A stretch of 64,000 nt of DNA, from NCBI GenBank assembly GCA_020853525.1, contig JADYYS010000030.1, forward strand, positions 62,001 to 126,000, written 5' to 3'. Below the pieces are notes generated by a model. That model was not told the DNA's origin. It did no database searches and saw only the letters and a list, made by a program, of their open reading frames with translations. This document shows, one piece after another, positions 3,065 through 21,197 of this stretch; the first letter of the stretch is position 1; every line of letters starts with the position of its first letter. The position numbers and the translations under genes are program-made. This stretch comes from Ardenticatenales bacterium (GTDB lineage: Bacteria > Chloroflexota > Anaerolineae > Epilineales > Epilineaceae).

Positions 3065-3096
3065 ACAGGTGGTACCGCTTCATCCCGGAGTCCCTC

Positions 3097-3657: not shown

Positions 3658-3698
3658 CGACGCCGGACGCGGCCGCTGAACGTACCGAACCGGTATGC

Positions 3699-3728
3699 TT
3701 GGCCCCAGAGGGGTCAGCCTGCTAGAAT
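3699..3728 (+). promoter_or_regulatory. Promoter of tRNA-Glu
   Basis: TTGGCC (3699-3704), 18-base spacer, TAGAAT (3723-3728), placing transcription start a few bases before the tRNA 5' end. The 10-mer around the -10 (GCTAGAATCG) recurs exactly upstream of acnA. Confidence 0.6.
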
Positions 3729-3740
3729 CGACCGCCCTGC

Positions 3741-3813
3741 GCCCCCATCGTCTAGGGGACTAGGACACCACCCTTTCAAGGTGGTAACCGGGGTTCGAAT
3801 CCCCGTGGGGGTA
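3741..3813 (+). tRNA. trnE: tRNA-Glu (anticodon UUC)
   Basis: A 73-base tRNA. The acceptor stem GCCCCCA pairs with TGGGGGT (one G-U at the first pair) and the discriminator is A; CCA is not encoded directly after it (CACCA follows). The anticodon loop CTTTCAA gives TTC, and the T-loop is TTCGAAT. The ammonia-lyase gene begins about 10 bases after its 3' end, so the two may share a transcript. Confidence 0.97.
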
Positions 3814-3823
3814 CACCAAGGCC

Positions 3824-5659
3824 GTGGCGCCGCGCATGCACGATCCCCTCGACCTGGCCGCGGCCGATGGCCATCCGAGGCAGCTCACGACCGGCGACGT
3901 CGTCGCCGTCGCGCGTGGGCTGCACGCGGTGGCCCCGCTCCGCGAGGACCCGGCGATCCAACGCCCGATCGAAGCGGCCATGGAAGCGTCGGCAGCGTGG
4001 GTCGCATCGATCGTCGACCGGATCGAGGATCCGGCGACGCCGACGGTGTACGGCATCAACACCGGCTTCGGCGCGCTGGCGGGACGCCGGACGCTGCGCA
4101 GCGCGTACGAGGCCGACGTGCTGCAGCGCAACCTCCTGGTCAGCCACGCCGTCGGCGGCGGCCGGCTGTTGGGCGAGGACGAGGTGCGCGCGGCGGCGTT
4201 CGTGCGCGCCGGCCAGCTCGCGCGCGGCCGCAGCGGGATCCGCATCGCCGTTGTGAACCGCCTGATCGCGCTCCTGAACGGCCGCGTCCTGCCGACGGTC
4301 CACGCGATGGGCTCGCTCGGCGCCAGCGGCGATCTGGCGCCGCTGGCCTACCTGGCCCTGGCGATCAGCGCCCCGCCTGAGCCGCCGACGGGCACAACGG
4401 CTTTGCCGGTCGACGGATTCGATATGCCGGCATGGGTCTTGGCGGACGACACGCCGGGACAACCTTGGTCCTGGTCGCCCGACGACCTGCGCATCGTGCC
4501 CGACCCGCGCGACGGCCGTCCGCGCTTCTGGCGCCGGGTTCCCGCCGCCGCGGCGATGGCGCCGTTCGGCGGACAGATCCGGCTGCGCGCCAAGGAGGGC
4601 TTGGCGCTGACGAACGGCGCCACCCTGACCGCCGCACTGGCCGCGCTGGCGGTGCACGACGCACAGCGCGTGCTCGAGCATGCCGTGCTGGCGCTGGCGA
4701 TGACGCTCGAGGCGGCCCGCGGCTTTCGCGACGCATTCCTGGCGCCGCTGCAGGCGGTGCGCGGCTCGCCGGGCCAGGCGTCAGCGGCTGCGCGCGTCCT
4801 CGATCTGACACACGGTTCGACGCTCCTCGATCCCGGCGACGACGACCGCGATCCCGAGCGCGTGCCGCCACAGGATCCGTACTCGATCCGGTGCGGCCCG
4901 CAAGTCATCGGTGCGGCCCGCGACGCGCTCGATTTCATCGGCGGCATCGTGGAGCGTGAGCTGAACGCCGCGGTGGACAACCCGCTGATCTTCACCGAGT
5001 TGCGCCGCCCGACGAAGGCCGTCAGCGGCGGGAACTTCCACGGCGCGCCGCTCGGCTACGGCCTCGACCTGCTGAAGATCGTCGTCACCGACGTCGCCAG
5101 TCAGTCCGAACGGCGAACGTACAAGCTGACGGATTATCGGTTCGACGATCCGGGGCGCCGCGCCTACTCGCTGCCCTTCTTCCTCGTGCCGCCCGACAGC
5201 GGTCCGGAAGGCCTGAACAGCGGCCTCATGATCCCGCAGTATGTAGCCGCCGCCCACGTCTCGGCGTGCAAGACGCTCGCCCATCCCGACAGCGTCGACT
5301 CGATTCCTTCCTCGGCCGGCCAGGAAGATCACGTCGCGATGAGCTTGAACGCCGCGCTGCATGCCCGGATGATCCTGGACCACGCGGCGGACGTCGTGGC
5401 GATCGAGCTCCTGACCGCGGCACAGGCGCTTCGGCTGCGGCTCGCCGAAGGTGTGGGCACGCCGGGCGGGCCTGTCGGTCGGGTGATCGAGCGCGTGGCG
5501 ATGGACATCGGCGCGCCGGGCTTCGATCGGGCGCTGCACGTCGACCTGTCGGCGATGCGGCGGCTCGTTCACACGGGCGAGCTCCTGGCGGCCGCAGACG
5601 AGGCGATCGACGCGGATCGACGGTTGCGCGGCGGCGGCGCGGCGGTGAACGGGGCTTGA
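3824..5659 (+). CDS. Histidine/aromatic amino acid ammonia-lyase
   Basis: A 611-residue member of the HAL/PAL family, which eliminates ammonia from histidine (to urocanate) or an aromatic amino acid using the self-formed MIO cofactor. The Ala-Ser-Gly triad is residues 167-169 in GSLGASGDLAPLA; the catalytic-Tyr loop YGINTGFG is at 76-83; QDPYSIRC, GLNSGLMI and SAGQEDHVAM are the usual HutH blocks. It is about 100 residues longer than typical HutH, mostly from an insert after residue 180 and longer loops near residue 340. No hutU, hutI or hutG lies nearby, so histidine degradation is not supported by context. The start is uncertain: GTG 3824 or ATG 3836, both just after tRNA-Glu. Substrate is not deducible by eye. 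Confidence 0.9.
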   Translation: MAPRMHDPLDLAAADGHPRQLTTGDVVAVARGLHAVAPLREDPAIQRPIEAAMEASAAWVASIVDRIEDPATPTVYGINTGFGALAGRRTLRSAYEADVLQRNLLVSHAVGGGRLLGEDEVRAAAFVRAGQLARGRSGIRIAVVNRLIALLNGRVLPTVHAMGSLGASGDLAPLAYLALAISAPPEPPTGTTALPVDGFDMPAWVLADDTPGQPWSWSPDDLRIVPDPRDGRPRFWRRVPAAAAMAPFGGQIRLRAKEGLALTNGATLTAALAALAVHDAQRVLEHAVLALAMTLEAARGFRDAFLAPLQAVRGSPGQASAAARVLDLTHGSTLLDPGDDDRDPERVPPQDPYSIRCGPQVIGAARDALDFIGGIVERELNAAVDNPLIFTELRRPTKAVSGGNFHGAPLGYGLDLLKIVVTDVASQSERRTYKLTDYRFDDPGRRAYSLPFFLVPPDSGPEGLNSGLMIPQYVAAAHVSACKTLAHPDSVDSIPSSAGQEDHVAMSLNAALHARMILDHAADVVAIELLTAAQALRLRLAEGVGTPGGPVGRVIERVAMDIGAPGFDRALHVDLSAMRRLVHTGELLAAADEAIDADRRLRGGGAAVNGA

Positions 5660-5665
5660 TTGGGC

Positions 5666-5694
5666 TTGCGGTGCGGCGGACCGGCCCGTAGACT
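5666..5694 (+). promoter_or_regulatory. Promoter of the vanW-like gene
   Basis: TTGCGG (5666-5671), exactly 17 bases, then TAGACT (5689-5694), about 120 bases before ATG 5817. Confidence 0.55.
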
Positions 5695-5816
5695 AGTACC
5701 CTGCCGCCGCAAAGCCTCCGGGCTTCGCGATCACCACTCCGAACGTCCTGGTGTCGGTCGCACATCGTACGGATCGCACATCGCCCACTTGCCATGATCC
5801 ACGACGAGGCACGTTC

Positions 5817-7664
5817 ATGACCCGCGAACTTGGCCACGCGCCGCAAAGCCGATCGACGCCGGCCGCCCGCCGCATCACCCGGCGCGGCGCATGGCCCGTC
5901 TTCCTGCTCGCCGGCGTCCTTGCCCTCGTGTTGATCCCAAGCGCCTACCGCTGGCGGTGGGCGGACCGCGTGCTGCCGGGCGTGCGCGTGGCGGCGGTGC
6001 ACGTCGGCGGGCTCGACCGAGACGCCGCAGCGCAGCGATTGCAGGCGGCGGGTCTCGACACCGCGGTCGAAGCAAGTGTCCGCGCCGATGACTTCCGCAC
6101 GGTGATCGAATCCGACACGATCGGACTCGACCTCGAGGCGACGCTGGACGCCGCGTTCGCGGTCGGGCGCACGGGTTCGCGGCCGGCGCAGCTCTCCGAT
6201 CTCGCGCGCACGCGCTTCGGCGGTCGGACCGTCGTGCCGGTCATCCGCGTGGACCGGGATCGACTGGACGCGGCGCTGCACGCCTTCGCCGCCGACATCG
6301 ACGCGCCGGCCCAGGATGCGCGACTCGTGCTCGAGACAAGCGGCGTGACGGCCACCGAGGCGCGCCCCGGGCGGGCGCTGGACGTCGTGTCGGCCGCGAC
6401 GACGCTGCAGACCTTGGCGGAAATCGGCACGTGGCCGCTGGCCGACGTCCAGCTGCCGGTGAACGTGCTCGAGCCGGGTGTGACGGACGTCGGTCCGGCG
6501 CTGGAGCGGGCGCGCGTGTTGGCGGCCGGCACGGTCGAGCTGTCCCACGGCGATCTGCGGTGGACGCTCGAGCCGGGGCAGCTCGTCGGTGCGATGACCG
6601 TCGTGACGGACGCCGAGCGCGTGCGGCTGGCCATGGCGCCGGCGGAGTGGTCGGCGTTGCTGGCCCCGGTCACGTCGGCCGTCTCACGGACGGCACAGAC
6701 ACCGCGGTTCGATTTCGATCCCGAGACGGGCCATCTGGCCGTCGTCCGACCGGCGGAGGACGCCCTCGTCGTGAACGTCGAGCGCACCGCCGAGCGCGTG
6801 CTGGCGCTCGGCGCGGGCGCTGCACGCGTCGTCGCCGTCGCGGTGGACCGTTCGCCGCCGCCGATCACGAACACGGTCTCCGCGGACGAGCTCGGGATCC
6901 GCGAGCTCGTCGCCGAGAACACCAGCTATTATGTCGGGTCCGCGCCGGGCCGGGTCACGAACGTCCGGCTCGCCGCCTTGCGCTACGACGGCCTCGTCAT
7001 CCCCAAGGACGCCGTCTTCTCGTTCAACGAGTTCCTGGGCGATGTCTCCGCCGCCGAGGGCTACCAGAAGACGCTGATCATCCTCGACGGCGCCACGGCC
7101 GACGGCATCGGCGGCGGCGTGTGCCAGGTTTCCACGACGCTCTTCCGAGCCGCCTTCTGGGCGGGCCTGCCGATCGTCGAGCGCTGGGCGCACGGCTACC
7201 GCGTCGGCTACTACGAGCAGCACTCAGGTCCCGGCCTCGACGCGACGGTGTACAGTCCCATCGTGGATCTCAAGTTCAGGAACGACACCGGCGCTGCGCT
7301 GCTCATCGAAGCCGAACCCAACCCGCGCGCGATGACGCTCACGTTCCGGCTGTACGGCACGAAACCGTCCCGCGAGGTCGCGATGGAAGGGCCGTTCACC
7401 ACCAACATCACGCCACCGCCCGCGCCGCGCATCGAGGTCGATCCGTCGCTGCCGCCGGGCGCGAGCGAGAGCAAGGAGCTCGCCCGCAACGGGGCATCGG
7501 TTTCCGTTCGGCGAATCGTTCGCGTTCCCGGCCAACCGGACCGGGTGGATACGTTCCACAGCCGCTATGTCCCGACCGGTGCGCTTACGCTCATCGGCCC
7601 CCCAGCCGCGCCGGCCGCCGAGTTCCAGGCAAGCGCGCCGGCGCAGGCGCCGGTCACCCCCTGA
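5817..7664 (+). CDS. VanW family cell-wall protein (YoaR-like)
   Basis: A 615-residue single-pass membrane protein. An N-terminal cytoplasmic tail is followed by one membrane helix (about residues 27-43), then two PG-binding-4/YoaR-type repeats (GLDRDAAAQRLQAAGL and VFPV-like segments), the VanW domain around residues 380-500 (GGGVCQVSTTLFRAAFWAGL and RWAHGYRVGYYE), and a C-terminal G5-like strand region. The VanW core binds or remodels peptidoglycan in related proteins; the exact reaction is unknown. ATG 5817 has GAGG seven bases upstream, and a good promoter lies at 5666-5694. It precedes, by 53 bases, a trio of glycan genes on the same strand and may be read with them. Confidence 0.9.
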   Translation: MTRELGHAPQSRSTPAARRITRRGAWPVFLLAGVLALVLIPSAYRWRWADRVLPGVRVAAVHVGGLDRDAAAQRLQAAGLDTAVEASVRADDFRTVIESDTIGLDLEATLDAAFAVGRTGSRPAQLSDLARTRFGGRTVVPVIRVDRDRLDAALHAFAADIDAPAQDARLVLETSGVTATEARPGRALDVVSAATTLQTLAEIGTWPLADVQLPVNVLEPGVTDVGPALERARVLAAGTVELSHGDLRWTLEPGQLVGAMTVVTDAERVRLAMAPAEWSALLAPVTSAVSRTAQTPRFDFDPETGHLAVVRPAEDALVVNVERTAERVLALGAGAARVVAVAVDRSPPPITNTVSADELGIRELVAENTSYYVGSAPGRVTNVRLAALRYDGLVIPKDAVFSFNEFLGDVSAAEGYQKTLIILDGATADGIGGGVCQVSTTLFRAAFWAGLPIVERWAHGYRVGYYEQHSGPGLDATVYSPIVDLKFRNDTGAALLIEAEPNPRAMTLTFRLYGTKPSREVAMEGPFTTNITPPPAPRIEVDPSLPPGASESKELARNGASVSVRRIVRVPGQPDRVDTFHSRYVPTGALTLIGPPAAPAAEFQASAPAQAPVTP

Positions 7665-7717
7665 CGGTCGCCGGCCCTCCTGGTCGCGCCCAGGCCGACG
7701 TCGATACGCGACCGCGA

Positions 7718-8926
7718 ATGCGGATCGCGATCGTGACGGCCGCCTTTCACGCATCGGACGACGATCCGTTCGTGCCGGTATGGCGCGACATGGTCAAGGC
7801 GTTGGGCGTCCGCGCCGACGTCGTCGTGTTCCCGCTGCGCTTGCCGGCGGCGGGACCGCCGTACGCGTTGGACGGCGCGCGCGTCGTGCCGCTCGGCCAC
7901 GGCATGGTGCGCCTGCGGCGCAGTCCGGCCATGTGGCGTTCGGCCGTGCGTGCCGTCGCGGCGGACCACCGCCGGCGGCCGTTCGACGCCGTCCTCGCGC
8001 TCCAGGCAGGAGAGCCCGGCTTCGTCGCGGCCATCGTCGCCCGGCGCATCGAGCGGCCGCTCCAGGTGCACGTCGCCGGGGGCGAGCTCGTCTGCCATCG
8101 CGCCCTGGGCTACGGATTGGGCTACGGATTGGGCTACGGGTCGCGCTGCCGCTGGATCGAGCGCGCTCAGGTGGCGGTCGCGCTGCGGCGGGCCGACGTC
8201 GTCACGACAGGCTGCCGCGCGATGGCGCAGCGTGCCCGGTCAGGCTTGCCGGCGGGCCGCGCGCACCGGGTCCGGTTGGCGCCGCTGGGTATCGATCCGC
8301 GGGCTTGGGAGGCGAACGAGCCGCTCGTCCTGACCAAGCCCCTCGCCGCGCGGGACACGACCGTTGCACGCCTGCTCTCCGTGGCCGACCTCCGGCCGAT
8401 CAAGGACCATCGCCTCTTGATCCACGCGTTCGCACGCGTCGCCGCGCAGCGGCCGGTGACGCTCGACATCGTCGGTGCGGGCGAGACGCTGGCCGAGACG
8501 CGCGCCCTCGGCCGGCAACTTGGCGTCGCCGATCGGATTCGGTACTGGGGCCGCGTTCCGCCTGTGGTGCGGCACATCCCGTTCGCCCAGGCACACGCCT
8601 TCGTCCACGCGAGCCGTCACGAGGCGCAAGGCATCGCGCTGATCGAAGCGGCGATGCTCGGGCTGCCGATCGCCAGCACGCGGGTCGGCGTCGCCGAGGC
8701 GCTGCCGGAAGGCGGACGCGCGCTCGCCGACGTGGGCGACGAGGACGCCCTCGTGCGCGCGATCTGGCGGGCCCTGGACGGTGCGACGGCGCCCCTGGAA
8801 CGGCGGGCGAAGGGACGCGCGCTGGTGTCCGCCACCTATGACCGGGCGACCTGTGCTGTCCGCTGGCTCACCCTCCTGGCGGCGGTGTGCGGGCGGCCGT
8901 CCGTAGTCGAGGACGGCGAAGCGTGA
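7718..8926 (+). CDS. GT4 glycosyltransferase
   Basis: A 402-residue GT-B glycosyltransferase. The N-terminal acceptor domain begins MRIAIVTAAF; the C-terminal domain contains LLSVADLRPIKDH and the GT4 E-x7-E signature in SRHEAQGIALIEAAMLGLP. It probably transfers a sugar from a nucleotide donor to a lipid or glycan acceptor at the cytoplasmic membrane face. The first gene of a coupled trio: its TGA overlaps the GTG of the HPr-kinase-like gene (GTGA, 8923-8926). A threefold 12-base tandem repeat codes for a GLGY-type tetrapeptide repeat near residues 131-142. Donor and acceptor are not identifiable. Confidence 0.85.
   Translation: MRIAIVTAAFHASDDDPFVPVWRDMVKALGVRADVVVFPLRLPAAGPPYALDGARVVPLGHGMVRLRRSPAMWRSAVRAVAADHRRRPFDAVLALQAGEPGFVAAIVARRIERPLQVHVAGGELVCHRALGYGLGYGLGYGSRCRWIERAQVAVALRRADVVTTGCRAMAQRARSGLPAGRAHRVRLAPLGIDPRAWEANEPLVLTKPLAARDTTVARLLSVADLRPIKDHRLLIHAFARVAAQRPVTLDIVGAGETLAETRALGRQLGVADRIRYWGRVPPVVRHIPFAQAHAFVHASRHEAQGIALIEAAMLGLPIASTRVGVAEALPEGGRALADVGDEDALVRAIWRALDGATAPLERRAKGRALVSATYDRATCAVRWLTLLAAVCGRPSVVEDGEA
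8106..8141 (+). repeat. In-frame 12-base tandem repeat (x3)
   Basis: Three copies of tgggctacggat (the third differs by one base) inside the GT4 gene, giving three GYGL-type tetrapeptides. It is a multiple of three, so copy-number change keeps the frame. Confidence 0.9.
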
Positions 8927-10041: not shown

Positions 10042-11300
10042 CGCCCCGTCGGCTGCGCGTGGCCTTGGTCATGCCGTACTACGATCCGCGGGTCGAAGGC
10101 GATCCGGCGGTTCGCCTCGCCCGATTCCCGACCGTGCCGGAGCTGGCGGCCGAGCTCGCGCGTCTCGGACTCGATGTGCGGGCGTATCATCTCTCCGATC
10201 GGGACGCGGCGGCGCGCTGGTCGGGCGTCGAGCACCGCTTCGTAGCCACCGGGTGGACGCGTCGTGCGGCGGCGCGGCTGTTGTGGCGGCTCGCGCCGCG
10301 GTTCAGGACACCCTACTACGAGCCGGCGTTCGGGCTCGTGCGGCGCGTGCTCCGGAGTCGGCCGGATATCGTCCATGTCTTTGGGCTGAACATGGACGTG
10401 AACGTGTGGCTCCTCGCACGTGCCGCCGCTCGCCGCGGCATACCCATCGTCGCGCACTTCCACGGCGGCGAGCCGGCCGAAGATCCTTTGACCCGCGGCC
10501 TGCAGCGCGCCTCGCTTCACCGGATGGCACGCGTGCTCTTCACGCACCCTTCGCAGGCGCAACCCTGGTTGACGGCGGGCCTGCGACAGGAACAGGTCAG
10601 GGTCGTGATCGAGACCTCCACGCGCATTCCGCGCCCCTGTCGGCCGCGCGTTGCGGATCGAATCTTGTCCGGCGACCCGGCGTGTGTCCTCGTCGGACGG
10701 CTGCACCCGGTCAAGGATCCACTGACCGCACTGACCGCGTTCGCACTGCTCGCAGAGGCTGTGCCCTCGGCGCGCCTGCATGTGTTCAGCAGCTCGGATG
10801 CGTTCGGTGGCCGGCTCCCTGCCCTGGTGTGTTCTGTGCCCGTCTTGGCCGGGCGTGTAGTCTTTCATGACTACACGAAGTCGCGTCGCCTGGCTGTGTT
10901 TCTGTCGAACGCCGACCTCCTGCTGCAGGCGAGCCGGCGGGAGTGGTCGAGCTTGAGCGTGCTCGAGGCGTTGGCGACGGGCGTCGTGCCGGTCGTCACG
11001 GACATCCCCGCCCTGCGCGCGCTGACCGACGACGGTCACGTCGGTCGCCTGGTGCCGGTCGGTGACGCGCGGGCGATGGCCGACGCGGCGATCGCGTTGG
11101 CGGTGCATCGCGCCGAGCTCGAGCGTCTGAGCCTGGCCGGCCGGGCGGCGTTCGACGCGCGCCTGTCGTTTCGCGCGCTGGCGCGGGACGTTGCGTCCGT
11201 CTACGGCGAGGTCGTCGCCGATTCGGCGTCGTCCACGTCGTTGCCGAGCGGGAATCGAACGCGGCGGCCTTCCGCGTCGACGTCGCCGCCGGCGGCCTGA
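10038..11300 (+). CDS. GT4 glycosyltransferase
   Basis: A 420-residue GT-B glycosyltransferase, third gene of the coupled trio. The N-terminus begins LRVALVMPYYDPR; VHVFGLNMDVN and AHFHGGEP lie in the acceptor domain; the donor domain has VLVGRLHPVKDP and the E-x7-E signature in SRREWSSLSVLEALATGVVP. Start GTG 10038 overlaps the preceding stop. The last ~33 codons (11201-11300) overlap the 3' end of the convergent DUF2723 gene; that tail is Ser/Pro/Arg-rich and looks like a run-on rather than a folded domain. Acceptor and donor unknown; probably acts with the other GT4 on one surface glycan or glycolipid. Confidence 0.85.
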   Translation: MTPRRLRVALVMPYYDPRVEGDPAVRLARFPTVPELAAELARLGLDVRAYHLSDRDAAARWSGVEHRFVATGWTRRAAARLLWRLAPRFRTPYYEPAFGLVRRVLRSRPDIVHVFGLNMDVNVWLLARAAARRGIPIVAHFHGGEPAEDPLTRGLQRASLHRMARVLFTHPSQAQPWLTAGLRQEQVRVVIETSTRIPRPCRPRVADRILSGDPACVLVGRLHPVKDPLTALTAFALLAEAVPSARLHVFSSSDAFGGRLPALVCSVPVLAGRVVFHDYTKSRRLAVFLSNADLLLQASRREWSSLSVLEALATGVVPVVTDIPALRALTDDGHVGRLVPVGDARAMADAAIALAVHRAELERLSLAGRAAFDARLSFRALARDVASVYGEVVADSASSTSLPSGNRTRRPSASTSPPAA

Positions 11301-14300
11301 CCGCGGACGAGAGCGCGTTCGAGGGTCGTCACGTCATATAGGCCGAGCGCGAGCATCCAGTGAGTGGTGACGGTCCCGTCCGGCAGGTCATCGGGCCACG
11401 TCAACACGTGCGTGCTCTCGAGCGTCGCCCCCCGCGGCCAGAGGTGCGTCGGGAAGTGCGGACCGAGCGGCGACCCGTCCGCCTGTGCGGCGGGCGCGGT
11501 GGCGGACGGGTCGCGCAGCACGTGAAGGAAGACCGTCCAATCGCGGGCGATCGGTTCCTCGACATGCCAGCGGAGTGTGACGGTGACTGCGTCGCCCGGG
11601 TCGAGCCCGCCGGCGGTCGGCGCATGGATGCCCGTGAGGCGCGGTCCGCCGTCAAACGCGATGTCGGTGGTTGTGAACGCGGCCGGGAACCCCGGCGCAC
11701 GGGTCCCGGGGACCGTGTACAGCCCGGTCAGCACCCGATCGTCGCCCTTCGAGCCGTCCGCACCGACGACCGCCCGGCGCGCGCGCGACTCGCGGTCGTA
11801 CAGCCCGAGCTGCAGGATCGCGGGTCCGGACGGCATGTCGGGCGGCACGCGCAGGTAGAACGTGTCGGCATGGACATCACCCGAGCGCCACGCATCCATC
11901 GGTTCGGCGCCGTAGAGGATCTCGCGGTCGGAACCGGCGCGAAGTGCCTGTTCGGCGTCGAGGAGCTGCACGAATGCCTTGTCCCGGTGGGACGGCGCGC
12001 GGTCCGCTGTCCACTTCGTCTCCACCGCCAGCCAATCTCCCGGTCGGATGAGCCGTCGTCGCGGCAAGAAGCCGACCAGCGAGACGCCACCCTCGAATTC
12101 CAGTGGCCCGTCAAGCCCGGGCGTCTCCCGCCGCAGCGCTACGTGCGGCAGCCGCCATGCGCGGCCGAACGGCGCTCCGGCGGTGGTACGTTCCACTCGG
12201 CGGACGAGCCGCGGCGCGAACACGGGTGAGCCGAGCGCACATCGCACGCCCCGAAGCGTCGCGAACCCGGCGCACGCATCGTCCACTGCGACGACCAGCG
12301 AGTGCCGCGTCACAAGGACGGCATCCGTCCCGCCCGGCCACGAGCCGCTCGGCAGGTCCGCCGCTTCGCTCGGGTCATCACCGGAACGCGCATCCGTCAG
12401 GCGGACCGTGCCGCCCCCGGCGGGCACCGCCGACGGGTGCGCCCAGTACGCCCGCACGTCCAATGACGCGCCGATGCCGACCGTGGCCGGCGCTTCGATG
12501 CCGACAAGCATGGTGCCGTCGGGCCATGCGCGCCGGACGGGCACGACGTCGCCGAAGGCCGGGTCAACCGCGAGGTCGCGGCGCGTGATCGACGCGACCG
12601 TCAAGGTGCCGATCTCGCGCCACGCGGCGCCTTCGGCCGTCGCCCTCGCCGCATCCGCGCTGGCCAATCGTTTGTCGGCGACAGCGGGGCCGTCCCCGCC
12701 CGAGCCGTCCCCGCCCGCGCCCGCTTCGTCCGCCCGTCGGTCGAGAGCGCCCTCCAGTACGTACGCGCCCGGCGCCACCTCGCGTGCGAGCCCGAGGCGG
12801 ACTTCGCCGGTCGCGATGCGCGCGTCCCGGTCCGGCAACAGCGTCGTCTGACCGTCCGCCACCGTCCGGCCCGTCGCGTCCGCGACCAGCCGGACGCGGA
12901 CGCTTCCGCCACCGGTCGGCACGCCACTGCCCTGCAGAACCAGCTGGACGATCACGTCGTCACCGGGCAACGTCCGCGCGGTTCCGGCACGGGCGGGCGC
13001 CGACACCGCGCGCCAGCCGACCACCTGCAGCGCATCGTCGGCGGTGGCGAGCGCCTGCCGCGGAGCGGCCATGCCGGCAGGCTCCCCCACGTCCGATGAC
13101 GGGACGAGCGCATAGGACGGGCCGATCGGCACGGCGCGTATGCCGGTCGATGACAGCGCTTCGCGCGCGAACCCGTAGGCGACGACCGGCCGATCCTCCG
13201 CCCGTGGGTCGGCCAGCGCGCGCCTGCCGGCCGGCCAGTCGGCGTACACGACGTCGAGATCCGGTCGGACGCCCTTAAGGTGTCGCGCGTACAGGAACCC
13301 GGCCCCGACGGACGGGTGGACGACGAGGCGCGCGCCCTGCGGGATCGGCTCCGCAAGGGCCGCGTCGGCGGCGGCTTGACCGGGCCAGCCCCGCGAGGCG
13401 TCCACACGCGGCCACGTGCGGGCGAGCGACACGGTCACCGCGCCCGCACACACGGCGGCGACGGCGGCGCGCCGAAGGGTGGACCGGCGCGACGTCGGCC
13501 CATGCGCGTTCGCCGCGGAGGCGGCGCCGATGCCCGCGGCGATCGCCACGGCGGCCAGCGCCGGGAGGAGCACCACCCAGCCGTCCCAGGCGAAGTAGCC
13601 AAGATAGAAAACGGCGTACGCGCCCGCGATCGCCGCCAGGGCGACCGCCCAGTCGAAGCGCCGCCGTGCGACCAGGGCGGCGAGGCCCACGGCGGCGAAC
13701 ACGACCATCAGCGGCCCGAAAGCCGTGTCGATCGCGTGCCGCAGCAGCTCCCAGCGGGCGGGTTCGTCGGGCAGTCGGCTCAGGTCGAACAGCCCGGGAT
13801 AGTTGCGGCCGGTGACGTAACCGAACAGCGTGGGCACATCCAATGCGGTACCGTTCACGCCCTGCCAACGCCACGGGAAGTAGAGGAGCGGCGCCAGGCC
13901 GACGATGAAGGCGAGCGCCGAACGCGCGACGTCGCCGGGGCGCGTGAGAAGCCTCGGATCGCGGGCAAGGACAAGCCATGCGACGACCGGGTAAAGGAAC
14001 ACGGTCGTCAGGTGGTGGGTGAAGCCGAGTCCGGCCAAGGTCAGCGCGGCTAGGCGCCACGCCGCGTCGGCGCGACCGCCGCCGTCCGGCACCGCCGACA
14101 CACCCGGCCGAACAGGCCGGCCGCGGGTCGCCTGGCGCGGCAAGCGCTGCGGATCGCGGCGCAGGTGCGCGAGGCACGCCAGCACACCGAGCACCAGGAC
14201 GACATTCAGCGTATAGACCTCGGTGATCACCGCCTGTGACCACAACTGCGGCGTGAACGCCAACGCCAACGCCGCCACGACGCCGGCCAGCGGATCATTC

Positions 14301-14815
14301 GCCAGGCGGCGTGCGAGCGCGAACGCGAGCGCGGCGGCGACCGTACCGCACGCGGCGGACAGCACGTTCATCCGCCACGCCACGTCCGCGACGGGCAACT
14401 GCGTGAACACGTGGCCCAGCATCGTGTAGAGCGCATAGCCCGGAGCGTGCGCGATGCGGAGCGTCGCCGCCACGAGCTGGAACTCGATACTGTCCGTGGC
14501 GTTCGTCGTCGGCGAGAGCGTGCCGAAGTACGCGGCGCCCACGGCCAGGACGACGAGCGCACCAGCCAGGTGGCCGCGCGGGCGCGCGCGGCGAACCCGG
14601 CCTTCGCGGGTCGGCGCACGCGGCGGTACGGCATCGGCCGCGGAAGGCGTCGCCGATGCCGCCGACGCCGCCGCCGCGAACGCGAGGCCGACCAGGACGG
14701 CAACCAGGGCTTGGAGCGGACGGTATGCCGCCTGCACGCCGACGGCTGCAACGGTGACGCCTACGGGCAGCATGAGCGCAGCGCCGTCGACCGCGGCCGA
14801 CCGCGACACCTTCAT
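11201..14815 (-). CDS. DUF2723 GT-C type membrane glycosyltransferase with large ectodomain
   Basis: A 1204-residue protein. The first ~500 residues contain about ten hydrophobic helices and the DUF2723 (protein O-mannosyltransferase/TMTC-like) signature: TNATDSIEFQLVAATL with an acidic pair, followed by IAHAPGYALYTMLGHVF. Such enzymes use a polyprenyl-phosphate sugar to glycosylate outside the membrane. The remaining ~700 residues are extracytoplasmic and rich in beta-strand segments (several repeats of YVLEGALDRR- and LQLGLYDRES-like strands), much larger than usual for this family. Start ATG 14815 overlaps the GT2 stop (ATGA). Pairing with a polyprenol-phosphate mannosyltransferase-like GT2 directly upstream fits donor supply plus transfer. 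The 3' end overlaps the convergent GT4 gene by 100 bases. Confidence 0.82.
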   Translation of the reverse strand: MKVSRSAAVDGAALMLPVGVTVAAVGVQAAYRPLQALVAVLVGLAFAAAASAASATPSAADAVPPRAPTREGRVRRARPRGHLAGALVVLAVGAAYFGTLSPTTNATDSIEFQLVAATLRIAHAPGYALYTMLGHVFTQLPVADVAWRMNVLSAACGTVAAALAFALARRLANDPLAGVVAALALAFTPQLWSQAVITEVYTLNVVLVLGVLACLAHLRRDPQRLPRQATRGRPVRPGVSAVPDGGGRADAAWRLAALTLAGLGFTHHLTTVFLYPVVAWLVLARDPRLLTRPGDVARSALAFIVGLAPLLYFPWRWQGVNGTALDVPTLFGYVTGRNYPGLFDLSRLPDEPARWELLRHAIDTAFGPLMVVFAAVGLAALVARRRFDWAVALAAIAGAYAVFYLGYFAWDGWVVLLPALAAVAIAAGIGAASAANAHGPTSRRSTLRRAAVAAVCAGAVTVSLARTWPRVDASRGWPGQAAADAALAEPIPQGARLVVHPSVGAGFLYARHLKGVRPDLDVVYADWPAGRRALADPRAEDRPVVAYGFAREALSSTGIRAVPIGPSYALVPSSDVGEPAGMAAPRQALATADDALQVVGWRAVSAPARAGTARTLPGDDVIVQLVLQGSGVPTGGGSVRVRLVADATGRTVADGQTTLLPDRDARIATGEVRLGLAREVAPGAYVLEGALDRRADEAGAGGDGSGGDGPAVADKRLASADAARATAEGAAWREIGTLTVASITRRDLAVDPAFGDVVPVRRAWPDGTMLVGIEAPATVGIGASLDVRAYWAHPSAVPAGGGTVRLTDARSGDDPSEAADLPSGSWPGGTDAVLVTRHSLVVAVDDACAGFATLRGVRCALGSPVFAPRLVRRVERTTAGAPFGRAWRLPHVALRRETPGLDGPLEFEGGVSLVGFLPRRRLIRPGDWLAVETKWTADRAPSHRDKAFVQLLDAEQALRAGSDREILYGAEPMDAWRSGDVHADTFYLRVPPDMPSGPAILQLGLYDRESRARRAVVGADGSKGDDRVLTGLYTVPGTRAPGFPAAFTTTDIAFDGGPRLTGIHAPTAGGLDPGDAVTVTLRWHVEEPIARDWTVFLHVLRDPSATAPAAQADGSPLGPHFPTHLWPRGATLESTHVLTWPDDLPDGTVTTHWMLALGLYDVTTLERALVRGQAAGGDVDAEGRRVRFPLGNDVDDAESATTSP

Positions 14816-15642
14816 CCGGCGCCCTGCCCGCGCGGCGGTCGCTTCGGCAGCCGGAGACGGCGCCGCGCGTACCAACGCCGCCAAGCGAGGCGCACCACGG
14901 TCTCGGCGGCGCGGCCGATCTCGGCCCGCGAGATCTTGGAGGCTCCGTGGCGGCGATCTGTGAACCGGATCGGGACTTCGGCCACGCGGGCGCCGGCGCG
15001 CTGGCAGCGAAAGAGCATCTCGATGAGGTAGCTGTAGCCGCTGGACCGGATGCCCGCCAGGTCGACCTCGCCGAGCAGGCTGGCGCGGTAGCATCGAAAA
15101 CCCGAGGTGCAGTCGTCGGCCGAGAGGCCGATGACGCGGCGGGACAGCGCGTTGGCGCCGGCGCTCAGGAAGCGGCGATGCCAGCCCCAGTCGCCGTCGA
15201 TCGAGCCGCCGGTGGTGTAGCGGCTGCCGATGACCAGATCCGCATCGGCGGCAGCGGCCAGCAGCAGCGGGAGGACGGCCGGGTCGTGCGAGAAATCGGC
15301 ATCCATCGTGCACACGAGCGCGGCGCCCATCTGGATCGCCTCGCGGAAGCCGGCGCCGTACGCCGTGCCGAGCCCGAGCTTGCGGCCGCGGTGGAGCACG
15401 ACCACCCGCCGGCCGTGTCGCATGGCCAACGCGTCGGCCGCCCGACCGGTGCCGTCCGGCGATCCGTCATCGACGACGACGACCGCGCGGATGCCGCCCT
15501 GGGCCAGAATCGACTCGACGAGCGGCGTGATGTTGTCCACCTCGTTGTACGTCGGCAGGACGACGACGGCGCCGGCCAGCTCCGCCGCCAAAGCCCCAAC
15601 GGGGTGCCGCGGCTCGACGCCGATCCCCGGCTCGGTGTTCAT
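14812..15642 (-). CDS. Polyprenol-phosphate mannosyltransferase-like GT2
   Basis: A 276-residue soluble GT-A enzyme of the DPM1/Ppm1 type, which charges polyprenyl phosphate with a sugar from GDP-mannose or a similar donor. AVVVLPTYNEVDNI and VVDDGSPDGTG start the nucleotide-binding fold; the metal-binding DxD is CTMDADFSHDP; DWGWHRRFLSAGAN and CTSGFRCYR are the conserved DPM1 blocks. There are no C-terminal membrane helices, as in actinobacterial/archaeal DPM1. Start ATG 15642 overlaps the ATP-grasp stop (ATGA), and its stop overlaps the DUF2723 start. It most likely supplies the lipid-linked sugar to that GT-C enzyme. Confidence 0.9.
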   Translation of the reverse strand: MNTEPGIGVEPRHPVGALAAELAGAVVVLPTYNEVDNITPLVESILAQGGIRAVVVVDDGSPDGTGRAADALAMRHGRRVVVLHRGRKLGLGTAYGAGFREAIQMGAALVCTMDADFSHDPAVLPLLLAAAADADLVIGSRYTTGGSIDGDWGWHRRFLSAGANALSRRVIGLSADDCTSGFRCYRASLLGEVDLAGIRSSGYSYLIEMLFRCQRAGARVAEVPIRFTDRRHGASKISRAEIGRAAETVVRLAWRRWYARRRLRLPKRPPRGQGAG

Positions 15643-17138
15643 TGCGCCGCGCCGCCTGACCCCGCGGCCGTGGCCGCCGGCAGGGTTGCGCCGACCGCTT
15701 CGCAGACGGTGCGCACGAGCGTTCGGATGTCGTCCGACAGACTGCCGTCCCGCTCCGCCACGCCGTGCTCCCGCCGCAGCAGCCGCGCGTGGGCACCTCC
15801 GTGCTCGATCGACCGACGCGGCGCCGGCATGAGCACGAGAACTTCGTCGGGCGAGAGGCCATCCGTCCGCACGGCCGGCCGCGCCGGTCCGACGCCGCCG
15901 GCGGTCATGGCGCGCCCACGGACGGGCCATGCGCCGGTCCGCACGTCGTCGGCCACGACGAACGGCGCGTGGCCGACGTTGTGCAGGACGACCTGCCCGC
16001 CGCGCAGCGGCGCCTCGTTGGCGTCCAACGGCGCCTGATCGGCACCGGGATCGAGGTGGGCGATGAGGTGACGCGCCAGGAGCGGGAGGCGGCCGTCCGC
16101 CAGCTCGAGCTGCGTGCAGAGAGCGATGGAAGCGATGAGTCGGGCGTTCACCTCGATCACGTAGATGCGGCCGTCGTCACCCTGCACGAAGTCAACCCCG
16201 TAGACACCGAGAAACCCGTCGGCAGCGAGCGCGCGCCCGATCGTCCGCGCCGCGTCGGCGAGCTCTGCCGTGGCGACGTCCAGGTGCGCCATGATCGCCC
16301 AGTCCTGGCCGCACGAGCCGAGGCGATAGGGGGTGATGCGCTCGAGGCCGGTCAGCTGCAGGAAGGGCGCGCCGACGGCAATCCCCCGCGCCGTGACGCA
16401 CGCGTTGACCGACAGCGGCGTGCCGGCGACGAGTCCCGTGACGCGCCACTCGGGACTGCGTGCGCTCGCCAGCGCGTGCGCGAGCTCCGACGACGAAGTG
16501 ACGACGTGGCTCTGCATGCCCGCATAGCCGTACGGCGCCTGGACGACGAGCGTCGGGCCGAGGGAGGCGGCGAGAACGTCGTAGTTCATCGCGGCGCGCG
16601 CGACGACGGCTCCGGGGGGCTGGAGCAGGCCGAGGGAGGCGGCGATCCTTCGGAAGGCGACCTTGTTCTCCCACCGCCGCGCCAGCGCGGCCGACGCACA
16701 GAGAAGTCGCCAGCCTTCGGCGCGCGCGATCTGTTCGAGCTGGTGGGACGGCTTGAAGACGAGGAGCGGCAAGCTACCCCCTGCGCGCAGGCTGCGGTCT
16801 CGCAGCCAGGCCAGCGCGCGGGGGGCTCGGACGAGCGCAGGCGTGCCGCGCGGATCGCCTCGCGCCGCCGTGGCGTGGTCGTTGTCGACGGCGTCATCGC
16901 CATGCGCGCGGCCGTCGTCGTGCGACGACGCGCCGAGCGCGAGGACGTCGACGGCCTCGTCCCTCAGCAGGGCGGCGGCGGGCGTTTCGTCAAAGCACAG
17001 GATGCCGAAGTCGGACAGGACGCGGTCGAGGCCGATCCCGTAGTGCGGGTCCGGGCCGGCGAACGTGACGGCGCGCGCCGCATGCGCCGCCCAGCCCTCG
17101 AGATCGGCGGCCGTCCGCACCCGCTCGGTGGCGCTCAT
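15639..17138 (-). CDS. ATP-grasp ligase of unknown substrate
   Basis: A 499-residue cytoplasmic protein. An N-terminal pre-ATP-grasp region (about 1-150) with a His/Asp-rich loop is followed by the ATP-grasp fold: ENKVAFRRIAASLGL (helix preceding the lid), VVQAPYGYAGMQSH as the nucleotide loop, and DGRIYVIEVNARL with the metal-binding Glu-Val-Asn. ATP-grasp enzymes form C-N or C-S bonds through acyl-phosphates. The LysX signature loop is not seen, so it is not plainly LysX or ArgX. It is coupled by ATGA overlaps to the PLP enzyme upstream and GT2 downstream, and a LysW-like carrier lies two genes upstream. A ligase that loads an amino acid onto that carrier is a reasonable hypothesis, not a demonstration. 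Confidence 0.75.
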   Translation of the reverse strand: MSATERVRTAADLEGWAAHAARAVTFAGPDPHYGIGLDRVLSDFGILCFDETPAAALLRDEAVDVLALGASSHDDGRAHGDDAVDNDHATAARGDPRGTPALVRAPRALAWLRDRSLRAGGSLPLLVFKPSHQLEQIARAEGWRLLCASAALARRWENKVAFRRIAASLGLLQPPGAVVARAAMNYDVLAASLGPTLVVQAPYGYAGMQSHVVTSSSELAHALASARSPEWRVTGLVAGTPLSVNACVTARGIAVGAPFLQLTGLERITPYRLGSCGQDWAIMAHLDVATAELADAARTIGRALAADGFLGVYGVDFVQGDDGRIYVIEVNARLIASIALCTQLELADGRLPLLARHLIAHLDPGADQAPLDANEAPLRGGQVVLHNVGHAPFVVADDVRTGAWPVRGRAMTAGGVGPARPAVRTDGLSPDEVLVLMPAPRRSIEHGGAHARLLRREHGVAERDGSLSDDIRTLVRTVCEAVGATLPAATAAGSGGAAQ

Positions 17139-18295
17139 CGGCGGCCGCCGGTCAACGGCGGCGGGCCGAGCGCGTGTCGGACGATCCGGTCGACGTCCTC
17201 GATCGTCCGCGCCTCCGGGTCCGATCGTGTCGGAGCGTCGGTCGAACGGGCCGCCGACGTGATGTGCATCGCCCCACCGGCGCGATCGGCGCCGGTGACG
17301 ATGACGATCGCGGTTCGGATGCCCGACTCGGCCGCCGCCCGGCGCGCCGCCGCCAGTGCGGCTGCCGCCTCGAGCGCCGCGTGGACCCCATGCGCGCGCA
17401 GGAGCTCGTCCGCCGCCTCGGCTTCGTCGTCCGTGATCCACCAGCCGCCGCCATGCGTGCCGCGGATGAATCGCTGCGCCTCGCCGAGCCGTCGCGTCTT
17501 TCGCGCACCGAGTGCGCCGACGCGGCCGGGCTGCAATGCGGACGCGGCCGGCCGCGAATCAAATGGCGCCGCCACCGATCCGCCGACGCCCTGTACGGCG
17601 TGCAGGCACGGCGTGGGCACCGCACGTTCGAATCCGGCGACCTCTCGCCGGTCGAAGGCACGGCCGATGCCGACGAACGACGCAGCGCTGGAGACGAACG
17701 TGAACAGCGCCTCGGGCATGGTTGCCGGCGCAACGGCCTGATCACGCAAGTCGGACAGGATCTCCCAGCCGAGGGTCAGAAAGCCCTCCACCGCCGCAGG
17801 GTCGGTCGACGGCCTCAGGTTCGGGACGCTCCGCGCAACGCACCATGCCTCGCACAGCGTGAGGGCGTTCGGACTCATGACCACCACCGCGCCGTTCGCA
17901 CGCACGGCTCGCACTTTGCCGGGGTCCGTGCCGGGCGCCACGAAGGCGACGACGCCGAGTCCCGCCGCCCGCCCGTACGCCGCCGCGGCGATCGCCGCGT
18001 TGCCCGACGACGAGAGCGCCACGTGGCGGAGCGCACACCCGCCGGCGGCTGCAGCGGCGATGGCAGCCGACACCTGGAATGCCATGCCGCGGTCCTTGTG
18101 CGAGCCCGTCGGGTTCCGGTCCTCGCGTTTGAGCCAGAGGCTCGTCAGACCGAGCGCAACGGCAAGTTGCGGCGCCGGCTCCAGCGGGGTATCCCCCTCG
18201 CCGAGCGAGATGCGGTACGGTGGATCGATCCGCGGCTCGAAGGCGTCGGCATAGCGCCAGATGCCGGCAGCCGGCGCCTCGGAGCGCACCGTCAT
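17135..18295 (-). CDS. Threonine-synthase-like PLP enzyme (fold type II)
   Basis: A 386-residue protein. LGEGDTPLEP, LWLKREDRNPTGSHKDRGM with the PLP lysine, and SSSGNAAIAAAAYG are the threonine synthase blocks. The later phosphate-binding turn, usually Gly-rich, reads VSSAASFVGIGRAF and is degenerate, so the reaction may differ from threonine formation from O-phosphohomoserine. No hom or thrB is nearby. The start at ATG 18295 is 35 bases after the LysW-like stop; its stop overlaps the ATP-grasp start (ATGA). Context (LysW-like, ATP-grasp) suggests a PLP beta/gamma-replacement or elimination step on an amino acid, possibly carrier-bound. Ordinary threonine synthase in a mixed operon is the alternative. 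Confidence 0.75.
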   Translation of the reverse strand: MTVRSEAPAAGIWRYADAFEPRIDPPYRISLGEGDTPLEPAPQLAVALGLTSLWLKREDRNPTGSHKDRGMAFQVSAAIAAAAAGGCALRHVALSSSGNAAIAAAAYGRAAGLGVVAFVAPGTDPGKVRAVRANGAVVVMSPNALTLCEAWCVARSVPNLRPSTDPAAVEGFLTLGWEILSDLRDQAVAPATMPEALFTFVSSAASFVGIGRAFDRREVAGFERAVPTPCLHAVQGVGGSVAAPFDSRPAASALQPGRVGALGARKTRRLGEAQRFIRGTHGGGWWITDDEAEAADELLRAHGVHAALEAAAALAAARRAAAESGIRTAIVIVTGADRAGGAMHITSAARSTDAPTRSDPEARTIEDVDRIVRHALGPPPLTGGRR

Positions 18296-18330
18296 CGCGT
18301 CCACGCTGCGCTGCGCGACCGGCGGCGAGC

Positions 18331-18492
18331 CTACTTCTCTTCCTCTTCGAAGAACTCGAGGAGGATCGGGGCGAGGCTGATCACCTCGATCTCCGCTCCG
18401 CAATGCGCGCAAACGAGGATCTCGCCGACGACGACCCCTTCCGGCGTCGGCACATCGATTCCACAGGCGGGGCAGGCTGCGACTTCATCCAT
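18331..18492 (-). CDS. LysW-like amino-group carrier protein
   Basis: A 53-residue acidic protein matching LysW in length and layout: a CPACG pair near residue 8, EGVVVGEILVC, a second CAHCG pair, then EIEVISL. LysW (AmCP) protects the amino group of aminoadipate or glutamate on its C-terminal glutamate in lysine/arginine and some natural-product pathways. True LysW ends in EDWGE or EDWGF; this protein ends FFEEEEK, so the terminal acceptor glutamate is not last. It could still carry a substrate on a nearby glutamate, could be trimmed, or could simply be a zinc-ribbon partner. ATG 18492 has a GGAG about 11 bases upstream. No lysX, lysZ, lysY or lysJ homologue is visible in this window apart from the ATP-grasp gene at 15.6-17.1 kb. 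Confidence 0.7.
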   Translation of the reverse strand: MDEVAACPACGIDVPTPEGVVVGEILVCAHCGAEIEVISLAPILLEFFEEEEK

Positions 18493-18621
18493 CGGAAGGT
18501 AGCTCCAGGCTTGGCGGGTGCGATCGACCGGCATGATAGCCGGGTCGCGTTCGTTCGGCGGAACGCGGACTCTCAACCGGTCCTCACAGCGGGTCTCTCA
18601 GGCGGCCTCGCATGCGACATC

Positions 18622-20220
18622 TCAACCGGCCTCTCCATCGGCTTCCTCTGTCGTGTGCTCGAAGGACGGATCGGCCGCGGTCACGGTCCTGAGCAACTGG
18701 CGGAAGCCGACCTCGGCACCGCCGTCGACGTAGTGGCGGCGGAAGAAGTACGGGCAGGCTGGCGATAGCAGCACGATGTCGCCCGCCACGGCACCTGCTG
18801 CCGCGGCGGCAACGGCGTCCGGGAGCCGGTCGAAGCGGTCGACGACCGGGCCGTCGCCTGCCGTCCCGGACCCAGCCTCGCCGGCCCTTTCGACCTCAGA
18901 GGCGATCCGCTCGCCGCCGGGTCCCGGCAGGACGATCAAGCGACGGACGCGGCGTCGGATCCATGCGACGAGCGGTTGCACGTCGAGGCCTTTGTCGTCG
19001 CCGCCGATGAGGAGCACGACCGGCGGCGGGTCCGGCGACGCCTCGTCCGCGCCGTGTGTCAGGGCCTCGAGCGCGGCGATCGTGGCCTGGGGCGTCGTCG
19101 CGTTCAGGTCGTCGTAGTAGCGTACTCCGCCCGCGCTCCAGACGAGCTGCGTGCGATGCCGCAGTCCGCGGAACGTCGCGAGCGCCGCGTCGATGTCGTC
19201 CGGGCTGGCCCCGGCCAGAAGCGCGGCGGCGGATGCAGCGAGGGCATTCTCGACATTGTGTGCGCCTGGGAGCGTGAACGAGGCGAGCGTGGCCACGCGC
19301 TCCGTGGGCCCGCCGGACGTTCGACGCACGTGGATCAGCCCGCCCGCACTCCAGACGCCCAGGTCCACCGGACCGCGGCGGCTGTACCAGAAGACAGGCG
19401 CTGCGAGCCCGTCCCCCATCGCGGACGTGAGCGCATTGTCGGCGTTTAGCACCGCCCAGCCGCGGCGGTCGATACCGGCGACGAGCTTGCGCTTCGTGCG
19501 GGCGTAGGCAGCCAGGTCGCCGCCATGTTCGTCGAGGTGATTGGGCAGGACGTTCGTGACGACGCCGATCCACGGATGGGGTTCGAGGTCGATCAGGTGG
19601 CGGTTGCTGACCTCGAGCACGAGCCGATCCGACGGCTGCATGTCCGCGAGCACATCGAGCACCTGGACGCTGCGGCGCTCGTTGCCGGCGTAGAACACCC
19701 GTCCGGGCATCTGGCGGAGGATGTGTTCGATCAGGCGGCTCGTCGTCGACTTGCCGTTGCTGCCCGTCACGGCGATGATGCGCGCTTTGGACAGCCCGAA
19801 GTAGAGGTCCATCAGGCCATAGAACGGAACGCCGCGGGCGCGAAGCGCACCAAGCGCCGACAGGTTGCGCGCGTACAGGTACCAGGCCTGCGGCGCGAAC
19901 ACCACGTCCGCGTCGGCAACGTCCGCCAAATAGTCGTCCGCCAGATGCCACCGGGCATCGATCGACCGGAGCGCAAGCCATGCGGCAGCGCGCGCCGGTG
20001 CCGCATGGCCCACGTGTTGGCGCTTGAACTCGGCCTCGATCGCGCCCTCGCCGGCCAGGTCGTGAAGCGTCAGCCGTCCGACGCCGGCCGCGGCCAGAAA
20101 GCGGGCGATCGCCGCGCCTTCCGTTCCGGCGACGCCGACGACGTGCACGCGCTTGGTCCGCCATGCGTCGACTTGATGCCAATCGACGGCGGGGCGCGTC
20201 CGCTCGGCCGGAGGGGTCAC
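18622..20220 (-). CDS. MurD-like Mur ligase family protein
   Basis: A 532-residue Mur ligase. The N-terminal Rossmann-like region (VHVVGVAGTEGAAIARFLAAAGV) resembles MurD; the ATP-binding loop is AVTGSNGKSTTSRLI, followed by VLEVSNRHL, NVLPNHLDEHG and a C-terminal domain with YYDDLNATTPQATIAAL, LLIGGDDKGLD and LLSPACPYFF. MurD adds D-Glu to UDP-MurNAc-L-Ala; here the usual SPACASFD ending is replaced by SPACPYFF and the gene is outside any division/cell-wall (dcw) cluster, so a paralogous role is possible. GTG 20220 overlaps the NlpC/P60 stop (GTGA). A 129-base gap then precedes the LysW-like gene. Confidence 0.8.
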   Translation of the reverse strand: MTPPAERTRPAVDWHQVDAWRTKRVHVVGVAGTEGAAIARFLAAAGVGRLTLHDLAGEGAIEAEFKRQHVGHAAPARAAAWLALRSIDARWHLADDYLADVADADVVFAPQAWYLYARNLSALGALRARGVPFYGLMDLYFGLSKARIIAVTGSNGKSTTSRLIEHILRQMPGRVFYAGNERRSVQVLDVLADMQPSDRLVLEVSNRHLIDLEPHPWIGVVTNVLPNHLDEHGGDLAAYARTKRKLVAGIDRRGWAVLNADNALTSAMGDGLAAPVFWYSRRGPVDLGVWSAGGLIHVRRTSGGPTERVATLASFTLPGAHNVENALAASAAALLAGASPDDIDAALATFRGLRHRTQLVWSAGGVRYYDDLNATTPQATIAALEALTHGADEASPDPPPVVLLIGGDDKGLDVQPLVAWIRRRVRRLIVLPGPGGERIASEVERAGEAGSGTAGDGPVVDRFDRLPDAVAAAAAGAVAGDIVLLSPACPYFFRRHYVDGGAEVGFRQLLRTVTAADPSFEHTTEEADGEAG

Positions 20221-21197
20221 GCGCCGCCTCGATAGCCGGGCGGAAACCGGCGCGCCGCGCGGAACGCATAGCGCGTCAGGAGGCCGGCCAACGTCTCGAC
20301 GGTCACGACGCCGTGGTCGAGACAGGCGTGCGCCACGGCGGCGGCACCCGACGGTCCCAGCACGAGCACGACATGACTCGTTCCCCGCTCGATGTGGGTC
20401 ACGTGGACGACGTCGCCCGCCCCGACATCGTCCAGCGCCACCCGGACGCCGAAGCGGGCCTGGTCGGTCGAGTGGCGTGGCAGTCCGAGGCCGGTCGCCG
20501 CCTTGACGACGTGCTGCACGAACGCCGAACAGTCGATTCCGCTCGTCGACCGGCCGCCGAGGACGTACGGCACGCCGAGCCAGGGACGAACCGCCTCGGA
20601 CCATGCGCCCGGCGACACCGCTTGCGCCGTCCCGGCCCAGCCCGCCCGCCATGCCGTCACCGACGCGGGCGCATGCTGCGGGACCAGCGCTGCGACGTCC
20701 GCCGTCGCAACCCAGCCGACGGTCCGGTCGGCCAGCTCGACCACGCTGTGATCGCCGACCTGCGTCAACCGGCGAGCCGGCGGATCACTCGGGAGAAGTT
20801 CGGAAGATAACGCGCCGGCGGCGGTAGCGCGCACGGCGACCGGTCGGCTCGTCACGCCGCGCAGCCAGCCGTCGCTCTCGGCGCGTTCGGTCAGGGCGAT
20901 GACGGCGTTCGACAGCCGAGCCGGGTCAAGCCCGGCCGCGGTCAGCTGCCCGCCGACGCTTCGCACGAGCGCGTCTCGCTGTGCCGGCACGAGGACCGTG
21001 CCCGCGAGCACCGGGGTTCCGTCCGCCTGCCGGGCAACGCGCACGTCGGCAACGACGTGGCCGTAGCGGGCGCGCCATGCCTCGAGCACGGCGACGAGCG
21101 CCCGCTCGGCGGCGGCGGTCACGGCGGCGACCATCGCGGCGTCGCTCGATGGGCCATCGTCGGGCGGACGCGGGTCCGTCAGCGTTGTTTCGGGCAC
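20217..21197 (-). CDS. NlpC/P60 family hydrolase with SH3-like domain
   Basis: About 326 residues. The middle region has an SH3b-like beta segment ([16 protein letters not shown]), and the C-terminal ~130 residues are NlpC/P60: [18 protein letters not shown] with the catalytic cysteine and a histidine in [10 protein letters not shown]. Such enzymes cut peptide stems of peptidoglycan, usually outside the cell; no clear signal peptide is seen, so location is uncertain. The start is chosen at GTG 21197 because the promoter at 21222-21251 covers the upstream in-frame TTG; ATG 21134 is an alternative. It is the first gene of the minus-strand run and overlaps the MurD-like gene by GTGA. Confidence 0.82.

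Follow-up and report, generated by a model that had tools for sequence, protein, structure and literature searches.

A five-gene module with a LysW-like carrier protein in two lineages of Chloroflexota and its probable role in the D-glutamate step of cell-wall precursor synthesis

Introduction

A gene for a LysW-like carrier protein that lies between a Mur ligase gene and genes for a PLP enzyme and an ATP-grasp ligase raises the question of whether these genes form one pathway and, if so, what it makes. The locus belongs to a window of 64,000 nucleotides (the whole stretch analyzed, G000:C30:62001-126000) from a Chloroflexota genome that is 97% complete with 0.2% contamination. It was compared with other genomes in the form of assemblies, mostly metagenome-assembled genomes (MAGs); the evidence is comparative throughout.

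The gene run and its conserved core

The original prediction described a seven-gene run on one strand joined by ATGA or GTGA overlaps, and the genes are indeed all on the minus strand at the positions it gave:

21197..20217, minus strand: NlpC/P60 cysteine peptidase (PF00877, NLPC_P60, 4e-15), with a GTG start and an alternative ATG at 21134
20220..18622, minus strand: MurD-like ligase (Mur_ligase_M, 2e-27; TIGR01087 murD, 215 bits, positions 81-420)
18534 (or 18492)..18331, minus strand: LysW-like zinc-ribbon carrier (PF21344, Zn_ribbon_LysW, 1e-10); the ATG at 18492 gives 53 aa
18295..17135, minus strand: PLP fold-type II enzyme, threonine-synthase-like (PF00291, PALP, 1e-42)
17138..15639, minus strand: ATP-grasp ligase (ATP-grasp_3, 5e-6; PRK06524, 1e-27)
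15642..14812, minus strand: GT2, dolichol-phosphate-mannose-synthase-like (PF00535, Glycos_transf_2, 1e-27)
14815..11201, minus strand: DUF2723/TMEM260-like GT-C protein (PF11028, 3e-29), whose end falls outside the originally delimited interval 14812-21197

Four-base GTGA/ATGA overlaps occur at the four junctions NlpC-MurD, PLP-ATP-grasp, ATP-grasp-GT2 and GT2-DUF2723, and the MurD-LysW and LysW-PLP gaps measure 87 and 35 nt, respectively.

A sister genus (G001), represented by the MAG Anaerolineae bacterium OFTM155, the closest relative with a name that was found, has the first five genes (NlpC/P60, MurD-like, LysW-like, PLP, ATP-grasp) in unchanged order and with 43-55% identity. There the PLP enzyme and the ATP-grasp ligase are fused in a single ORF of 905 aa (L012:7985-10702), a natural fusion that would be useful for structural work. 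A scan of a genome collection by peptide patterns recovered the sister MAG only, and nothing was found in the viral contigs scanned for the module. A profile built from two ATP-grasp sequences and run over 400 Chloroflexota genomes identified 12 additional genomes, all from a single family (f87) of another class, in which the peptide patterns are not conserved. The f87 loci harbor the same five genes in the order of the window with the LysW gene inverted, convergent with MurD and divergent from PLP, indicating that the module genes are not always a single transcript. In eight of these loci (L041, L043-L046 and L048-L050) the convergent carrier and MurD genes overlap at their 3' ends, with the codons for the carrier's C-terminus antisense to the end of MurD. 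In two f87 loci (L043:1040-5308 and L045:1744-6009) the module is preceded by genes for an AAA (MoxR-like) ATPase, a VWA protein and a protein of about 292 aa without Pfam match, and is followed by a DnaJ-like gene.

The checks proposed with the original prediction were the gene order in other Chloroflexota and the co-occurrence of the carrier, PLP and ATP-grasp genes beyond close relatives. The five genes recur in the sister genus and in a family of another class, and when the 400 genomes were searched with a profile built on the LysW variant, exactly the 13 genomes that bear the ATP-grasp gene scored 84-104 bits, with at most 59 bits elsewhere. Within the class of f87 (110 genomes) the ATP-grasp gene was detected in 17 of 18 f87 genomes and in none of the 92 others. 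True absence from the eighteenth (G471) was rejected, since its module contig is only 3 kb long and ends inside the PLP gene. As only two families are known to carry the module, the co-occurrence represents roughly two independent events, or a single one plus transfer.

Neither GT2 nor DUF2723 was matched at the module loci of the relatives (G001 and f87), for which reason they were rejected as pathway members. Since five genes recur across classes and these two do not, the module consists of five genes with GT2 and DUF2723 as passengers, sharing its transcript here yet separate from the conserved set. The original grouping thus stands for the carrier, PLP enzyme, ATP-grasp ligase and Mur ligase, and fails for GT2 and DUF2723, which make up a separate module; conversely, the NlpC/P60 peptidase, left outside the carrier set at first, is a member of it.

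Loss of MurI and canonical MurD

The Mur-ligase proteins of the window's genome comprise MurE, MurF-Alr, MurC-MurB, a cyanophycin synthetase plus a relative, FolC and the module protein, which is therefore its sole MurD. The module MurDs form one clade. They match the TIGR01087 model over positions ~75-422 only, with 178-215 bits, and so fall short of the full-length match of a canonical MurD (1-440 and 312-410 bits in relatives lacking the module). The alignment shows that the catalytic residues are kept (P-loop, carbamylated Lys, Lys348 and the SPA (SPAC) motif), while the clade has GN(E/D)R in place of GNIG and DL in place of DS. Two further positions were dropped as signatures, the loss of E. 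coli Lys319, because canonical Chloroflexota MurDs vary there too, and Asn at the Asp182 site, because canonical relatives also have Asn.

Canonical MurD was absent from all module genomes searched with the murD model (the window's genome, G001 and 12 f87 genomes), as well as from 18/18 f87 genomes in the class-wide set, and was present in 84 of the 92 non-f87 genomes of that class. The glutamate racemase gene murI shows a comparable distribution: it was not found in G000 (the window's genome), G001, G002 or any of the 12 f87 genomes tested, and was present in 8/9 other relatives, in 37/42 sampled non-f87 genomes of the f87 class, and in 272 of the 400 Chloroflexota genomes, with none among the 13 that carry the module. 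Additionally, no D-amino-acid transaminase scored over the curated cut-off among 24 genomes. Incompleteness of the MAGs was rejected as the cause of the missing MurI and MurD, given 14 genomes at 84-97% completeness. Other wall genes are kept: MurC and a canonical MurE (417 and 446 bits) in both the window's genome and the f87 genome G197, together with MurF, Ddl, MurG and FtsZ wherever these were looked for. Since the module genomes retain such wall genes but have neither MurI nor canonical MurD, the module very probably substitutes for these two.

A known substitution of this kind is that of MurD2 and MurL, and it could be supposed that the MurD-like ligase adds L-Glu, that MurL or another epimerase inverts it and that the carrier, PLP and ATP-grasp genes serve elsewhere. 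Apart from the missing MurI, this explanation has a precedent in two genomes of the f87 class that lack both MurI and the module (G120 and G384, family f52). In both, a MurL-family protein adjoins MurD, with 350 and 465 bits, below the model cut-off of 700, which was set for Xanthomonadales:

L136 (G120:C46), 5673-8464: MurL homologue and MurD2-type MurD
L137 (G384:C18), about 2991-5802: MurL homologue and MurD2-type MurD

An Arg at the E. coli Lys348 position marks MurD2 (PMC8788868), and it was found only in the MurL-linked MurDs of these two genomes; the MurD2/MurL route thus appears to exist in Chloroflexota, a phylum unlisted in that review. The module MurDs, on the contrary, keep Lys at this position (10/10), as does D-Glu-specific MurD, and might take free D-Glu of some other origin, which counts against the carrier route proposed below. 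No MurL lies near the MurD-like gene at the module locus, and none was found in 1.69 Mb (~73%) of G197, a stretch that did yield MurC, MurE, MurF-Alr, Ddl, MurG and FtsZ; the MurL search covered ~3% of the window's own genome. The N-acylated Glu of the ligation product, moreover, would not be epimerizable by a PLP enzyme, and the perfect co-occurrence with the ATP-grasp and carrier genes would be left unexplained. A MurD2-like route in the module genomes is consequently very improbable. The two f52 genomes serve instead as a control from within the class: genomes that have lost MurI carry a substitute next to MurD, which is MurL in G120 and G384 and the carrier module in f87 and the window.

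The LysW-like carrier

The four zinc-ribbon Cys residues of the LysW domain are invariant in 11 members of the carrier family, and the window's genome contains one PF21344 match only. In LysW, the substrate is attached by its amino group to the terminal Glu of the EDWGE ending (PMC10433800), and EDWGE ends 17/17 of the next-best other Chloroflexota LysW proteins checked. The module carriers have neither this motif nor a terminal Glu; all 11 aligned members end in [DE]EEK (EEEEK in the window). The acceptor carboxylate of LysW would thus be replaced by a lysine in the module carrier, although this residue might serve some function other than that of acceptor. Tandem LysW-like genes, two or three in number, were observed in another family, f59 (G109:C141:6489-7000; G174:C1:423214-423562; also G256, G287, G322 and G189).

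The original prediction noted that LysW-type carriers protect amino groups, a role that is unlikely here, where the terminal Glu is missing and all members end in Lys. A version of this idea would place the amine of the substrate on the C-terminal or penultimate carboxylate, for instance after trimming of the terminal Lys, and the clear LysW homology and the three acidic residues before the Lys speak for it. However, the terminal Lys is invariant (11/11), the ATP-grasp ligase is not of the LysX/ArgX kind, and an amino acid N-acylated in this way would not react with PLP and would offer no amine to MurD; amino-group carriage is accordingly judged improbable.

Secondary-metabolite pathways based on AmCP exist, and it could also be argued that two unrelated modules meet at this locus, one consisting of a substitute MurD and a recycling NlpC/P60 and the other being a carrier/PLP/ATP-grasp pathway to a metabolite, e.g., a non-protein amino acid. 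The inversion of the f87 LysW gene between MurD and PLP is in line with such a division. The order is nevertheless kept across two classes, exclusively with the loss of MurI and canonical MurD, and the EEK terminus of the carrier is strictly conserved, which leaves this alternative with a similarly low probability.

The PLP enzyme and the ATP-grasp ligase

In the PLP enzyme, Lys67 of the SHK motif and the SSGN motif are invariant, which is not diagnostic for a racemase; its function as a racemase is assumed, as no signature separates racemase from lyase or replacement chemistry. Its closest family is that of the threonine synthases. It nonetheless scores far under the ThrC cut-offs (51 bits versus 167 for TIGR00260 and 107 versus 303 for PRK08197) and does not contain the ThrC motif NPxRxxGQKT, and G197 has a separate ThrC (265 bits). 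Lysine or threonine biosynthesis was rejected on the basis of that separate ThrC and of the single LysW-like match in the window's genome; the outcome named as a refutation of the original prediction, that these are standard lysine or threonine genes, is thus not what was found.

The ATP-grasp ligase is related to ATP-grasp_3, PRK06524 and carbamoyl-phosphate synthetase (CPSase) rather than to LysX/ArgX-type ligases, with distant profile matches to the CPSase large chain (8e-10) and to the gamma-glutamyl ligase BesA (1e-7). Its AlphaFold model, of moderate confidence, has a generic ATP-grasp fold that does not reveal the substrate.

The NlpC/P60 peptidase

The peptidase comprises an N-domain of unassigned type and an SH3b-like region, with no signal peptide apparent when the sequence was read by eye. 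Its PDB matches are MepS, DPP VI and YkfC, and its AlphaFold/Foldseek comparison indicates the generic fold only. The Cys223-His275-His290 triad is invariant in 9 orthologues, and so are Tyr211, Asp222, Ser224 and Ser243, the residues of the gamma-D-Glu S1 pocket that correspond to Tyr226, Asp237, Ser239 and Ser257 of BcYkfC (PMC2954226). Asp256 of BcYkfC marks enzymes that need the free amine of L-Ala (PMC2954226); the module enzymes have His or Asn at this site and do not show that marker. A Chlamydia enzyme spares UDP-MurNAc-type precursors because it requires the free amine (PMC9928106). A cytosolic gamma-D-Glu peptidase free of that restriction, as predicted here, could act on UDP-MurNAc-bound peptides.

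The S1 pocket also bears on whether position 2 of the stem holds D-Glu at all. The PLP enzyme might make an unusual amino acid on the carrier by a ThrC-like beta- or gamma-substitution, which the MurD-like ligase would then add, as could be suggested by the kinship with threonine synthases, the altered substrate-loop motifs of the MurD clade (GN(E/D)R and DL) and the missing MurI. The invariant gamma-D-Glu pocket and the canonical MurE argue against another residue, which we consider unlikely, if somewhat less so than the alternatives above.

A carrier-based D-Glu step

The preferred reading is that the five genes replace the D-Glu step of peptidoglycan precursor synthesis (MurI plus MurD), and this is very probable from the comparison of genomes. 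The module owes its likely meaning to two facts, namely that the genome has no MurD besides the MurD-like protein and that it has no MurI, and the original hypothesis of a carrier-bound amino acid joined to a cell-wall product is borne out to the extent that the cell-wall link is the best reading. Regarding the chemistry, both PLP catalysis and MurD need a free alpha-amine, so that Glu has to be attached through a carboxyl group to any carrier that acts ahead of these enzymes; the side chain of a lysine can hold a carboxyl and a terminal Glu cannot, which leads to a gamma-Glu-Lys carrier scheme.

In this scheme, the ATP-grasp ligase would activate the gamma-carboxyl of Glu and couple it to the carrier through the epsilon-amine of the carrier's invariant C-terminal Lys. 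The gamma-linkage would leave the alpha-amine free, making it possible for the fold-type II PLP enzyme to form an aldimine and to invert the alpha-carbon of the carrier-bound Glu. The MurD-like ligase would then ligate the amine of the carrier-bound D-Glu to UDP-MurNAc-L-Ala, and the cytosolic NlpC/P60 would cut the gamma-D-Glu-Lys bond and remove the carrier; the last two steps may be reversed, with NlpC freeing D-Glu first. We infer every chemical step, and the specific carrier chemistry is put forward tentatively. More doubtful still is the full sequence of gamma-carboxyl attachment, inversion, ligation on the carrier and NlpC/P60 cleavage, with the polarity of LysW reversed. Taken whole, replacement and specific chemistry together stand at about even chances. 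The module nevertheless suggests that these uncultured Chloroflexota build their cell wall in a way not described before.

Significance

The supply of D-Glu and the MurD reaction are essential and nearly universal, and both are targets for antibiotics. The D-Glu routes described in the literature surveyed are racemase, D-amino-acid transaminase and MurD2/MurL, to which a carrier route, if true, would add a further solution. Peptidoglycan precursors would then be made on a carrier protein, and the range of LysW-type carriers would extend beyond amino-acid pathways to include the cell wall. It also follows that a genome without MurI or canonical MurD need not lack a wall or D-Glu. The carrier-protein route is directly testable by complementation of a murI mutant.

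Comparison with known systems

One close parallel is MurD2/MurL of Xanthomonas (PMC8788868), where linked genes including a divergent MurD also substitute for MurI and canonical MurD. That system has no carrier, PLP enzyme, ATP-grasp ligase or peptidase, and MurL epimerizes after ligation using ATP; MurD2 has Arg358 and Glu197, whereas the module MurD keeps Lys at the former site and has Asn at the latter. The BesA/PRK06524 ligases, of which BesA makes a gamma-glutamyl amide, are distant relatives of the module ATP-grasp, for which the best identity, ~22-30%, was seen in Rhizobium plasmids. The YkfC/DPP VI endopeptidases (PMC2954226) share with the module peptidase the catalytic triad, the gamma-D-Glu S1 residues, an upstream SH3b-like region and, in the case of B. 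subtilis YkfC, a cytosolic location, but differ in Asp256 (His or Asn in the module), in the N-terminal domain and in their link to recycling genes instead of MurD. Finally, the LysW/ArgW pathways of Thermus, Sulfolobus and haloarchaea (PMC10433800) have in common with the module the LysW zinc-ribbon fold, a carrier that adjoins an ATP-grasp ligase and a peptidase that could free the product. Their carriers end in EDWGE and are served by LysX, whereas the module combines an EEK ending with a CPSase/PRK06524-like ATP-grasp, does without the kinase, reductase and aminotransferase set, and has NlpC/P60 as release enzyme in place of a LysK-type peptidase.
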